Shown in pieces: positions 6,635-10,050 of a DNA stretch of 64,000 nucleotides. Position numbers and translations under genes: made by a program. Source of the DNA: Streptomyces paludis (lineage in GTDB: Bacteria; Actinomycetota; Actinomycetes; Streptomycetales; Streptomycetaceae); NCBI RefSeq assembly GCF_003344965.1, contig NZ_CP031194.1, forward strand, positions 4,092,001 through 4,156,000, read 5' to 3'. The notes under the pieces were generated by a model. The model worked only from the letters and a program-made list of their open reading frames with translations, was not told the origin of the DNA and made no database searches. Numbering within the stretch: the stretch's first letter is position 1; each line of letters opens with the position of its first letter.

Positions 6635-7684
6635 TCAGCCCAGCTTGCGTTCCTTCGCCGCCGCCTCCGAACTCCACCACGCGCCGAGCGCGAACATCGT
6701 GTCGACGCCCACGGCCTCGTAGAGCTTGGTCAGGTCGTTGTTGACGGTCCGCAGGCTGACCCCCAGCTCGCTGGCGATCTGCTTGAGCGTACGGCCCTCC
6801 CTGAGCTTGTTGAGGATGCGCCGGGACCTGCTCGTCGTGAGCGTCTCCTCGCGCCGCCTGAACCGGCCCCCCGTCCACGGCTCGGCCCGCTCCCACTGGT
6901 GGTCGTAGACGTGGTGCAGAAGCGCCACCATGCCCGGATGGGTGATGCGGAACGCGTCGTCCCGCCCCGCGTCGGCCCGGTGGTCCGGGACGACGGCGAA
7001 ATTGCGGTCCACCAGGATCATGCGGACGAAGCCGGTGGCGCTCGTCCGTATCTCCGCGCCGTGCGCGCCCACCTTCGCGACCCACTCCTGCTCACCGGCC
7101 CGGGAGCGCGCCGTGTCCGGATAGAGCGTGCGGTACGAGATCCCGCGCCGCAGGATCGCGAGGTCGGAGACGGCGGCGCTGCGCAGTGTCCCGGCCGGTC
7201 TCTCGCCGGGGTGCGCCGTGCGGATGGTGCTCTTCGCCTTGTCCATCGCCCGGGTGATGGCCGCGGTGATGAGTTCGTTGCGGTCGAGGAACTCGACGCC
7301 GTTACCGCTGGGCAGTTCGGCGTTGCGCATCTGCCGGTGCAGCTCGGACAACTGCTCCATACGTCGCAGATGGCGCGCGATACCGGCGCGCTCCCGCGCC
7401 AGGGCCGTCTGCTCGGCGTGGTAGAGATCGGCCGCGCTCCACCGCCCGTGGTGCGGGTCGTGCACGGCCAGCCCGAGCGCGGCCAGCTCGGCGCACCCGG
7501 GGGCGGAGCCCTCGACGAGTTCGCCCTGGACGAGCCGGCGCAGCAGCGCGCGGGCCTCCGCCGACAGGTCGGGCGACGGCATGGGGAGGGAGGGCGACGG
7601 CACGGAGGGGGAGGGGGACGTGCTCTCGCGCGACGTTATGTCCGGTCCTTTCGTTTGATCCCTGCACGTTTCCGCAGCGCACAT
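6635..7684 (-). CDS. LuxR-type HTH regulator with N-terminal sensor region (paralogue 1)
   Basis: Up to 349 residues. The C-terminal HTH (LREGRTLKQIASELGVSLRT, then VNNDLTKLYEAVGV) is of the LuxR/GerE type. The remaining ~280 residues resemble the TrmB/PLD-like region of Streptomyces regulators (ISYRTLYPDTARSRAGEQEW, IRTSATGFVRMILVDR). There is no receiver and no autoinducer domain. The start is uncertain: the ATG at 7684 has no good ribosome site, and an ATG at 7582 would remove a Ser/Pro-rich leader. It has the same architecture as its neighbour at 7794-8804 (RGISYRTLY versus RGVSIRTLY; HPGMV versus HPGLV), so the two arose by duplication. Both lie beside a divergent repeat-peptide gene that they may control. 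Confidence 0.8.
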   Translation of the reverse strand: MCAAETCRDQTKGPDITSRESTSPSPSVPSPSLPMPSPDLSAEARALLRRLVQGELVEGSAPGCAELAALGLAVHDPHHGRWSAADLYHAEQTALARERAGIARHLRRMEQLSELHRQMRNAELPSGNGVEFLDRNELITAAITRAMDKAKSTIRTAHPGERPAGTLRSAAVSDLAILRRGISYRTLYPDTARSRAGEQEWVAKVGAHGAEIRTSATGFVRMILVDRNFAVVPDHRADAGRDDAFRITHPGMVALLHHVYDHQWERAEPWTGGRFRRREETLTTSRSRRILNKLREGRTLKQIASELGVSLRTVNNDLTKLYEAVGVDTMFALGAWWSSEAAAKERKLG

Positions 7685-7793
7685 CAGTGCAGCCGCTTGT
7701 CACTTGAACGGTACGGGCCGAACGCGCAGGGTGGAGAAGGCCGATGGCGTACAGGGGTCGCTGTCGGCCCGGGGTGGCGTGGGCGGTGGGCTG

Positions 7794-8804
7794 TCAGCCG
7801 TCCTGGTCCAGGATCTGCGAGTGGGCGATGAGATAGCCGAGCTGCGCGCGGCTGCCGCTGCCGAGGGTGGTGGCGAGCTTGGCGATATGGGCGCGGCAGG
7901 TCCGTACGTTCATCCCCAGCCGGCGGGCGATGGCCTCGTCCACGTACCCCTCGATGAGCAGCTTCGCGATCGACCGCTGGACGCCCGTGATGCCGTCGGG
8001 CGTCGGCTCGTACGCGACCTGCTCGGTCAGTGGGGTGGCCCGGCGCCAGAGCAGCTCGAAGACCTGGGCCAGATAGTCGACGAGCCCCGGGTGGCGGAGT
8101 TCGAGGGCGACCTGCCGGTCCGAGCGGGCGGGGATGTACGCGACCGTGCGGTCGAAGATGATCAGACGCTCGGTCAGCTCCTCCAGCGTGCGGATCTCCA
8201 TCTCGTCCCTGGCCAGCTGCTCCGCGTAGGCCATGGTGCCCTGGCTGTGCCGGACCGTGTGCTGGTAGAGCGTGCGGATGCTGACGCCCCGGTCCACCAC
8301 CGTACGGCCGCGCTCCAGGGCCTGGGAGAGCGAGTGCTCGCTGCGCCCGCCGCCCGGCTGCACGGTGAGGACCTCGGTCCGGCACTCGGCCGTGGAGAGG
8401 TCCAGCGCGGCGTTGATCCGGCTGTCGCCCTCCAGCACGGTGATCGCGTGGGTGGTGGGCGGGTCCTGGGCGGTGATGTTCATGAACGGCTCGAAAGCGT
8501 CGGTCAGCTCGATGGCGAAGTGCCGGCGCTCCTGGATCTCCCGCTCGACCGGATTGAGCCGCTGGGCGAGGGCCGCGGACGGCGGGACCGGGCGCAGCCA
8601 GTCGGAGTCGTCCGGGTCGGGATGCAGCAGGGGGAATTCCATCAGGCAGGGGGCCTGCTGGGCCTCGCCGCGGGTGATACGTCCCGAGCGCAGCGCGCTG
8701 GCGTAAAGCCGTCTCCCGTCATCGCACAATTCGGTGACGGGGTGGGGATGTGTCTGTTTCGCGTTGTTTGTGGTCAAAGCTCCACCCCCCAGGGTCTTGA
8801 ACAT
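7794..8804 (-). CDS. LuxR-type HTH regulator with N-terminal sensor region (paralogue 2)
   Basis: 336 residues from the ATG at 8804. A TTG ten codons downstream, closely preceded by GGTGGAG, is an alternative. The C-terminal HTH is RSIAKLLIEGYVDEAIARRL then GMNVRTCRAHIAKL. The middle part (DRGVSIRTLYQHTVRHSQGT, LIIFDRTVAYIPARSD, RHPGLVDYLAQ) aligns by eye with the preceding paralogue. It is transcribed away from the peptide gene at 8907, and the two starts are about 100 bp apart. The intergenic region contains a TGTCC/GGACA inverted repeat. It probably regulates that promoter, the paralogue, or both. The ligand is unknown. Confidence 0.82.
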   Translation of the reverse strand: MFKTLGGGALTTNNAKQTHPHPVTELCDDGRRLYASALRSGRITRGEAQQAPCLMEFPLLHPDPDDSDWLRPVPPSAALAQRLNPVEREIQERRHFAIELTDAFEPFMNITAQDPPTTHAITVLEGDSRINAALDLSTAECRTEVLTVQPGGGRSEHSLSQALERGRTVVDRGVSIRTLYQHTVRHSQGTMAYAEQLARDEMEIRTLEELTERLIIFDRTVAYIPARSDRQVALELRHPGLVDYLAQVFELLWRRATPLTEQVAYEPTPDGITGVQRSIAKLLIEGYVDEAIARRLGMNVRTCRAHIAKLATTLGSGSRAQLGYLIAHSQILDQDG

Positions 8805-8834
8805 GCAGGAACATGATGCCTCGTCCCGGTGGTG

Positions 8835-8855
8835 TTGACGTGTCCGGATAGGACA
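8835..8855 (+). promoter_or_regulatory. Putative -35 and inverted-repeat operator before the repeat-peptide gene
   Basis: TTGACG (8835-8840) is directly followed by TGTCC-GGATA-GGACA (8841-8855), a 5-bp inverted repeat that would sit in the promoter spacer. No convincing -10 could be picked. The divergent regulator gene starts at 8804, so a shared control region is plausible. Confidence 0.4.
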
Positions 8856-8906
8856 TCGTTCAGATGGCGGGGGAGAGGAATCCATCAAGTGAGGACGAAG
8901 CCGACT

Positions 8907-9143
8907 ATGTATAAGAGAATGCTTCGCGCGGTGGTTGCCACTGCTTTCTCTGCGGCTCTGGCCTTCGGTGCGCTGGCCGTCGGCGGGGACATCGCTTGGA
9001 ACGCGCCGGCCGGCACCACCACGCAGGCCGAGGCGCCGGGCGACATCGCATGGAACGTTCGGGCCGCGGGAGCGGGCGACATCGCGTGGAACTCCGTTCA
9101 CGGCGACATCGCCTGGACAGCGCCGGCCGACATCGGCGCATGA
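8907..9143 (+). CDS. Small exported peptide with four GDIAW repeats
   Basis: 78 residues, family not recognised. N-terminus: MYKRMLR (basic), then a hydrophobic stretch to about residue 24 (VVATAFSAALAFGALA), a likely Sec signal with AXA-type cleavage after ALA. The mature part is four copies of GDIAW(N/T) at residues 27-32, 45-50, 57-62 and 66-71, separated by short Ala/Pro/Gly linkers, and ends DIGA. The four repeats use all four alanine codons (GCT, GCA, GCG, GCC) before TGG, so the protein sequence rather than the DNA is being kept. Its stop overlaps the next start (ATGA). GAGGA lies about 10 bp before the ATG. It could be a signalling peptide, a RiPP precursor or a surface repeat peptide. 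Confidence 0.8.
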   Translation: MYKRMLRAVVATAFSAALAFGALAVGGDIAWNAPAGTTTQAEAPGDIAWNVRAAGAGDIAWNSVHGDIAWTAPADIGA

Positions 9144-9460
9144 CTGTCCCGCCGGACGACCGGGTCTTCCGGCGTGAGATGGCTACGGCATACCGATCGG
9201 GGTGGCACTTCATCGATCTGGTCACGGCCATCCCGCACCGGGGTGACTCGTTGATGGTCACTCTCTTCGGGGAGCCGGTCGTCGTCGTGCGTGAGGACGA
9301 CGAGGATGTCCGTGCCTACCGCTGCCTGCGCAGGCCGCGAGGGGCCCCGCGTCCCGTCCGATGTGCCATTCGATACGACATGATCTTCGTCAACCTCGAC
9401 CAGCGTGATCACCAGCTGGTCGGCCCAAGAACCACCATCGCCACCCCCCGCAGCGCCTGA
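9140..9460 (+). CDS. Small Rieske-like protein lacking both ligand histidines
   Basis: 106 residues, translationally coupled to the repeat peptide by ATGA at 9140-9143. Residues 20-60 (SGWHFIDLV...LFGEPVVVVREDDEDVRAYR) resemble the N-terminal strand region of Rieske oxygenases (GEPVVVVRDxDGxVRA). The cluster motifs would be CxHRGA and CxxHGW. Here they read C62-L-R64 followed by RPRGAP, and C75-A-I-R78, so both Cys remain but both His are Arg. The segment between them is shortened and no catalytic mononuclear-iron domain follows. FVNLD at 83-87 resembles a late Rieske strand. It cannot bind a normal 2Fe-2S Rieske centre. It is either a decayed domain or a repurposed fold acting with the peptide. 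Confidence 0.65.
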   Translation: MTVPPDDRVFRREMATAYRSGWHFIDLVTAIPHRGDSLMVTLFGEPVVVVREDDEDVRAYRCLRRPRGAPRPVRCAIRYDMIFVNLDQRDHQLVGPRTTIATPRSA

Positions 9461-9502
9461 GCGATTCCCCCGTCGTTGTAAATCGCTCAGACGCTTCCCC
9501 CA

Positions 9503-9547
9503 CACAGCGGCGCCATCGTGGACCTGAAACTCGATGGCGCCGCTGTG
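9503..9547 (+). terminator. Strong hairpin terminator after the peptide/Rieske-like pair
   Basis: CACAGCGGCGCCATCG (9503-9518) and its perfect complement (9532-9547) form a 16-bp stem with a 13-nt loop. It ends the plus-strand unit and also lies downstream of the convergent gene at 9643, so it may serve both strands. Confidence 0.85.
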
Positions 9548-9642: not shown

Positions 9643-10050
9643 TCAGCCGCGGCCGAGGGCCCGGTCCAGCGCGATCTCGATGACCACCCGGTCCGGGTTG
9701 GGCGCCGGTGTGCGGCCGTAGCGCTCCGCGTAACGGCTCACCGCGTCCGCGACGGTCTCCGCGTCCGTACGGACCGTGGCCCGGCCCTCCAGCGTCGACC
9801 AGTAGCCCTGCTTGACCTGGCACACGGCGACCCGGGGCGCCTCCGGGCCGGTCGCCGCCAGGATGTTCGCGACCTTGCGGCTGTGCCGGTTCGTGATGAC
9901 GCGCGCGATCCCGGCCTCCGGGTCGTATGTCACCCCCACCGGGACCACATGCGGGCTGCCGTCCGGCCGCAGGGTCGTCAGGGTGCACAGGTGGTGCTCG
10001 CGCCAGAACGCGAGAAGATCGGGACTGGGGGCGCGTACGTCAGGGGCCAT
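9643..10050 (-). CDS. PPOX-class (F420-dependent type) oxidoreductase
   Basis: 135 residues from the ATG at 10050. It has the split-barrel flavin/F420-binding fold: [20 protein letters not shown] near residues 21-40, then [15 protein letters not shown] and GRATVRTD. The family binds FMN or F420 and reduces various substrates. The specific substrate is not readable. It is divergent from clpB, whose HAIR lies in the shared 150-bp gap. A much longer frame continues upstream antisense to clpB but is only a GC-driven shadow. Confidence 0.85.

Follow-up and report, generated by a model that had tools for sequence, protein, structure and literature searches.

A repeated D-x-x-W peptide and a LuxR-type regulator that vary together in Streptomyces: a putative pheromone-receptor pair

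In the stretch of Streptomyces paludis DNA analysed here (the window, 64,000 nucleotides of contig NZ_CP031194.1), a regulator gene, reg2, stands back to back with a gene for a small peptide carrying four GDIAW repeats, which is followed by a gene for a short Rieske-related protein, Rsk. Reg2, the repeat peptide and Rsk form a conserved Streptomyces unit. Within it, the repeats of one precursor vary in concert and the repeated D-x-x-W core covaries with Reg2, a covariation that is absent from tandem paralogs and from neighbouring genes. We consider it quite likely that the peptide is a Streptomyces pheromone with species dialects, read by Reg2 as a receptor combining a phospholipase-D-like (PLD) fold with a LuxR-type helix-turn-helix (HTH); direct binding, export, processing, import and autoregulation are steps that we infer. 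The features of the unit in the window are the following.

7794-8804, minus strand: Reg2, the putative receptor, 336 aa from ATG 8804, with a TrmB/phospholipase-D-like sensor at about residues 118-261 and a C-terminal LuxR-type HTH at about 266-330
8370-8372, minus strand: Reg2 codon 145 (Val), candidate specificity position for motif residue 2, from covariation
8319-8321, minus strand: Reg2 codon 162 (Ala), possible specificity position for motif residue 3
8805-8906, no strand: divergent promoter/operator region of 102 bp, conserved in the alignment of 206 loci, with a GCAGGAACATGATG element
8907-9143, plus strand: repeat-peptide precursor, 78 aa, with a signal-like N terminus and four GDIAW(N/T) repeats
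9140-9460, plus strand: Rsk, 106 aa, Rieske-oxygenase-derived, without cluster ligands, its start overlapping the peptide stop (ATGA)

Profiles built from the peptide and Rsk alignments were searched against 199 Streptomyces genomes. A peptide match (E<=1e-3) was present in 147 of them, so the GDIAW repeat is not due to chance. Rsk matched in 168, strongly in 158 (E under 1e-57) and weakly in 10 (5.9e-4 to 1.0e-17), and the 147 peptide-positive genomes all fell within the 158 when the lists were compared by eye. Eight weak cases were searched again, G008 and G138 being left out: four (G047, G050, G105 and G184) held a divergent short Rsk with Reg2 and the peptide, and the other four held long frames of 414-551 aa. 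All strong Rsk hits of a phylum sample (11 in 396 genomes) and of a family sample (23 of 121 genomes) belonged to the same genus; no strong short Rsk was found beyond it in the former, and no strong hit in other genera of the latter.

Gene order was inspected at 221 loci selected via Rsk, namely the window, 80 named loci and 140 sampled ones (140 of the 158 strong Rsk hits were fetched and 15 more later, which with the window makes 156 of 158). A divergent Reg2 with a peptide open reading frame (ORF) between was present at all 221, and removal of 15 duplicates having the same peptide and Reg2 left 206 unique loci. Loci fetched by the peptide only, from the best 30 of the 147 genomes, had Reg2 and Rsk in 30 cases out of 30. 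The original prediction had been staked on a conserved peptide and on neighbours that do not vary at random; the peptide is found across most of the genus sample, and the neighbours are fixed in both sets of loci. The spacing between Reg2 and peptide was 98-110 bp, a range that is partly a product of choosing the start nearest 102 bp, and the peptide stop lay anywhere from 10 bases inside the Rsk start to 5 bases before it. The unit is larger in scope than had been stated, occurring in most sampled Streptomyces, near clpB.

The window peptide has a start rich in Lys and Arg, a hydrophobic stretch, and then four GDIAW copies, the next residue being N after the first three and T after the last. 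Its ATG at 8907 sits 102 bp from the divergent Reg2 ATG, and its TGA (9141-9143) overlaps the Rsk ATG at 9140. The 78-residue divergent peptide with a signal-like start and four repeats, its distance of 102 bp, and the ATGA overlap with a Rieske-like ORF (9140-9143) were thus all as originally described. An in-frame GTG at 8889, 18 nt upstream of the ATG and preceded by a conserved GGGGGAGAGGA, would give 84 aa and could be the true start in the window lineage.

D/E/N-x-x-W words were present in all 206 unique-locus peptides (48-150 aa long), with 1 to 10 copies each and 42 versions in total; only 10 Trp residues lay outside such words. The four letters were identical in every copy in 160 of the 172 multi-copy precursors, and 602 of 614 copies agreed with the majority of their own precursor. 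In an independent protein search, the motif was found in all of the best 120 of 612 relatives, and 101 of 112 multi-copy ones were homogeneous. Codon agreement between copies at residues 1, 2 and 3 was 88, 73 and 54%, versus 83, 54 and 45% expected for independent choice, and the four DIAW copies of the window use four different Ala codons (GCT, GCA, GCG, GCC). There is some duplication among the copies, with the amino acid often kept despite a codon change; because many copies keep it with a different codon, the repeats are not merely recent DNA duplicates. In some lineages the last core almost exactly ends the protein (P0207 of S. coelicoflavus and P0210 of S. parvulus finish ...DDSAWS, and a single residue follows the last motif in 32 of 206 peptides), so the mature peptide may be roughly D-x-x-W-x. 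Public annotation names several of the repeat peptides 5'-nucleotidase or CDK5RAP3 family protein, labels incompatible with repeat peptides of about 60-120 aa.

When all Reg2 columns were scanned on the Reg2 tree, column 145 alone stood out. Ser at motif residue 2 went with Met145 in 67 of 67 cases, Pro with Leu145 in 39 of 39 (plus one gap), and Ile, Thr, Leu or Val with Val, Ile or Ala145 in 99 of 99. On the best Reg2 tree, rebuilt for this count without residues 140-165, motif and residue 145 alike changed class at least 25 times, mostly between Ser and Thr together with Met and Val; column 145 had a z of 12.9 there, versus 2.5 for the best clpB, PNPOx or Rsk column. Because motif and residue 145 agree fully at the tips, their reconstructions are bound to be the same, and the informative quantity is how often they switch; collapsing branches under 0.9 or 0.95 support left at least 15 or 11 switches, respectively. 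The clpB tree gave 44 shared switches, and column 145 again came first (13.9). Among disjoint pairs of relatives, residue 145 differed in 24 of the 27 with a different motif residue 2 and in none of 81 with the same motif. The corresponding figures for residue 162 were 23 of 45 with a different motif residue 3 versus 10 of 81. At that motif position, Thr was accompanied by Gly162 in 30 of the 32 cases without a gap, and Gly by Ala162 or Ser162 in 47 of 48. In the simplest reading, a larger peptide side chain would pair with a smaller receptor side chain.

Tandem Reg2 paralogs at the same loci (n=30, past the length filter) break the code: Met was found in 1 of 13 at Ser-motif loci and Leu in 0 of 2 at Pro-motif loci, Val or Ile being their usual residue 145 (15 of 15 at other-motif loci). 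Further loci read after the rule had been fixed obeyed it in 24 cases out of 24, among them the four divergent ones, in which residue 145 is Leu and the peptide ends in DPAWD or DPTWG; 15 of the 24 were shown to be distinct from every earlier locus.

If Reg2 reads the peptide, Reg2 is expected to diverge with the motif and the linked genes are not. Motif similarity was correlated with protein distance across 16,653 pairs: Spearman's rho was -0.585 for Reg2 and much closer to zero for clpB (-0.146), Rsk (-0.195) and the PNPOx-like protein (-0.196). With clpB and PNPOx controlled for, the partial correlations were -0.56 for Reg2 and -0.11 for Rsk, and Reg2 retained -0.41 after controlling also for the first 22 residues of the peptide and for Rsk. 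Species nearly identical in clpB and having different motifs (54 pairs) showed a median distance of 0.25 in Reg2 and 0.02 in Rsk; with the same motif (17 pairs) the Reg2 distance was 0.02. From these distances, Reg2 and the peptide were replaced or rewritten together, with flanks little changed. The original guess that the peptide or its repeats are a ligand of the regulators gains strong support, for Reg2, from this apparent receptor-ligand covariation.

We propose that the precursor is exported via its signal-like N terminus and would then be cut into short peptides holding the repeated D-x-x-W core, in the window probably around GDIAWN. A short peptide would re-enter the cytosol and bind the phospholipase-D-like sensor domain of Reg2 by residue 145, possibly also 162, and binding would alter the action of the LuxR-type HTH at the shared reg2/peptide promoter and at further targets. 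Peptide and receptor would co-diverge into dialects, such that each lineage hears mainly its own signal.

Several points weigh against this proposal. The locus has no linked importer, the signal sequence of the precursor was judged by eye, and binding and secretion are putative. The unit went undetected in 37 of the 199 genus genomes (including the two weak cases left uninspected), Reg2 is apparently truncated at one locus (L090), and the ORF script favoured DxxW-like words and the start codon closest to 102 bp. Twelve of 172 precursors were mixed, with 4 off-class copies among 646. The residue-145 classes were set after the table had been seen, so the true test is that of the 24 later loci only, 15 of which were checked for identity with earlier ones. 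For motif residue 3 the code is less strict, Ser being found with Ala in 33 cases or Gly in 31. Column 145 is not alone on the clpB tree, where z is 5 to 7.6 for other Reg2 columns and 3.6 for the top column of Rsk. In the model, residue 145 lies at the beginning of a strand, and a pocket contact of 145 and 162 is putative. The first 22 residues of the peptide vary with the motif as well (-0.465, and -0.43 as a partial correlation), so some of the Reg2 correlation reflects peptide and Reg2 being inherited together; the residue-145 code goes beyond that.

Reg2 might bind the D-x-x-W peptide without any signal passing between cells: the peptide would act within the cell that makes it, for example before export or as an anchored inhibitor, and give feedback on its own expression or on secretion stress. 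Such an internal loop explains all of the covariation equally well; it would fit the heat-shock cluster position (the window locus lies between dnaJ and clpB, and clpB matched within all 80 named loci fetched by Rsk) as well as the missing importer gene. We nevertheless hold it to be unlikely, as the repeated switching of motif among close species with little-changed flanks, and the many copies, resemble pherotype diversification and would be unneeded internally. Far less probable is an antimicrobial, or a product of the ribosomally synthesized and post-translationally modified peptide (RiPP) type, in which the repeats are cores and Reg2 is a self-sensing regulator. Repeated cores, fast divergence, the coupled Rieske-type relative and a nearby gene for a PNPOx-like flavoprotein would suit this explanation. 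However, no known modification or RiPP enzyme was found among the five window proteins scanned (neighbours were not annotated systematically), Rsk lacks cluster ligands in 206 of 206 sequences, no Cys occurs past residue 25 in any of the 206 peptides, and the variable residues track the regulator.

Finally, Reg2 and peptide might covary only via a third partner or shared inheritance, the repeats being structural on the hyphal surface. The genes are adjacent and seemingly exchanged together, and the signal part of the peptide also tracks the motif. Linkage, however, does not produce a residue code that is nearly one-to-one and has switched 25 times on the tree of Reg2 itself (11 times when well supported branches alone count), nor does it explain why same-locus paralogs and the equally linked Rsk have no such code; we give this explanation the slimmest chance of all. 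A pheromone read by Reg2 is the reading that we retain.

The sensor domain of Reg2 models as a PLD/TrmB fold, that is, with a PLD-like effector-binding domain. In Pfam, the C-terminal part of Reg2 matched LuxR-type HTH families and its central part DUF7436/TbsP, none of these matches reaching the curated cut-off. The archaeal regulator TrmBL2 aligned from Reg2 residue 21 onward, at 18.7 A root-mean-square deviation, and there was no Pfam TrmB hit. As had been noted originally, the regulators are without a known autoinducer domain: no N-terminal autoinducer-binding domain was found in Pfam at E<=1 for Reg1, the second regulator of the window, or for Reg2.

The Reg2-peptide pair would be a form of peptide signalling, comparable to a peptide quorum-sensing pair, whose receptor belongs to an unrelated class. 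In the RRNPP systems of Bacillota (Rap/NprR/PlcR/PrgX/Rgg and their propeptides), a small exported propeptide likewise lies beside a cytosolic receptor of 250-500 aa, and the mature signal is a few residues long; here a propeptide, with export judged from sequence, was adjacent to the candidate receptor (Reg2, 336 aa) at 221 of 221 loci. Intragenic repeat duplication is reported in RRNPP propeptides, and some Streptomyces peptides exceed the 100-aa propeptide limit given in the same source (PMC10075063). RRNPP receptors bind the imported mature peptide directly; for Reg2, the covariation is indirect evidence of such binding. The RRNPP receptor is a TPR protein, whereas Reg2 has a PLD/TrmB fold with a LuxR HTH, and the Streptomyces precursor, found here only in this genus, has 1-10 near-identical cores and a coupled Rieske-derived protein. 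Membership of RRNPP was rejected, as no TPR family was found for Reg2 (Pfam and NCBIfam, E<=1) and its sensor models as PLD/TrmB. Membership of the acyl-homoserine-lactone-type LuxR receptors was rejected likewise, given the missing autoinducer-binding domain and the PLD-like sensor, the same features that set Reg2 apart from LuxR/VqmA-type receptors. Reg2 shares the PLD-like effector-binding domain with TrmB and TrmBL2. The DNA-binding domain of TrmB is N-terminal; TrmB binds sugars, according to its entry title, whereas in Reg2 a LuxR-type HTH sits at the C terminus and the code is linked to a peptide. Yeast alpha-factor type precursors are multi-copy pheromone precursors, in which one exported precursor similarly holds several identical peptides; the Streptomyces system differs in being bacterial, in its much shorter core and in its proposed receptor, a cytosolic regulator.

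Rsk aligned with the N-terminal Rieske half of ring-hydroxylating oxygenase alpha subunits (5xbp, E 1.6e-4). Unlike them it has 106 aa, no catalytic domain and, in 206 of 206 aligned sequences, no C-x-H or C-x-x-H cluster ligands. It scored 15.2 bits with Pfam Rieske (cut-off 20.3) and 34 bits with the N terminus of the NCBIfam model for GbcA, glycine-betaine monooxygenase, far under the model cut-off; its predicted structure was of low confidence (pLDDT 68.6), with no significant fold match. The peptide modification originally suggested is not borne out by these ligand-free sequences, which barely track the motif. Being highly conserved and not following the motif, Rsk is not the specificity part; from its coupling to the peptide, we would guess at a feedback partner of Reg2, or at the output. 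A 414-aa Rieske-oxygenase-type frame at L310 (genome G048) scored 53 bits with the Rsk profile, other long frames at most 31.5; it may stand near the ancestral protein that was shortened into Rsk.

The window comes from a genome of 8.45 Mb, and its near protein relatives are from Streptomyces. From reading of the ORFs, the unit is flanked by dnaK-grpE-dnaJ-hspR genes on one side and clpB on the other. Other features are the following.

6635-7684, minus strand: Reg1, 349 aa, lineage-specific paralog of Reg2, probably outside the conserved unit
9503-9518/9532-9547, no strand: perfect 16-bp stem with a 13-nt loop, between Rsk (plus strand) and the convergent PNPOx-like gene; possible bidirectional terminator
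9643-10050, minus strand: PNPOx-like gene, between Rsk and clpB in the window

A Reg2 query retrieved Reg1 (E 4.4e-19, 27% identity), in agreement with two paralogous regulators on one strand. That the pair forms a unit did not hold: close Reg1 orthologs were found at only 2 of the 80 named loci (L034, 85%; L032, 67%), and Reg1 is probably a lineage-specific extra. Other tandem paralogs are common, though, many named loci having one to three extra Reg2-like genes upstream of Reg2 (L078, L081, L084, L087, L101, L108, L110, L111 and others), possibly receptors for other dialects or ligands. Given the conserved 102-bp intergenic region, autoregulation of Reg2 and the peptide is plausible; the GCAGGAACATGATG 14-mer occurs exactly once genome-wide. 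A PNPOx-like match was present in 80 of 80 named loci and was not found in L314. Of the predicted stem terminator, the perfect inverted repeat at 9503-9547 is present; it has no T-run, and a simple terminator scan made no call there. An imperfect 15-nt inverted repeat (93%, 9452-9495) spans the Rsk stop and precedes the perfect stem.

Gamma-butyrolactones are small molecules with unrelated receptors. The BldK oligopeptide importer is reported to take up a 655-Da peptide (PMC9640686). Like both of these known Streptomyces signals, the candidate would act ahead of development or antibiotic production. Two LuxR-family regulators of S. coelicolor are SCO3665 (327 aa) and SCO3666 (394 aa), according to PMC3282765. 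In PMC6585502, SCO3664 is called 'regulator', and its disruption by an insertion is one of those reported to increase actinorhodin over 50-fold; a complementing plasmid is given there, and 12 of 16 regulator mutants tested, possibly including this one, were restored. In G091, whose peptide has DSAW as in S. coelicoflavus P0207, the order from clpB is Rsk, peptide, Reg2 and a second and third Reg2-like gene; if the order is the same in S. coelicolor, SCO3664 would be Reg2, as argued from gene numbers.

Streptomyces are the makers of many antibiotics. The full picture, to which we give an even chance, is a previously unrecognised, genus-wide D-x-x-W pheromone language with a PLD-fold/LuxR-HTH receptor, in which residue 145 reads motif residue 2 and 162 helps with residue 3, with repeated matched dialect switches, and with a receptor that is probably SCO3664 by gene numbers. 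If true, the old question of which peptide BldK carries would become testable, a tie between BldK and this peptide being a possibility; the lineages would offer a natural series for the evolution of signal specificity; and a pheromone-receptor pair with a peptide-fit code would give a handle on antibiotic production and development.

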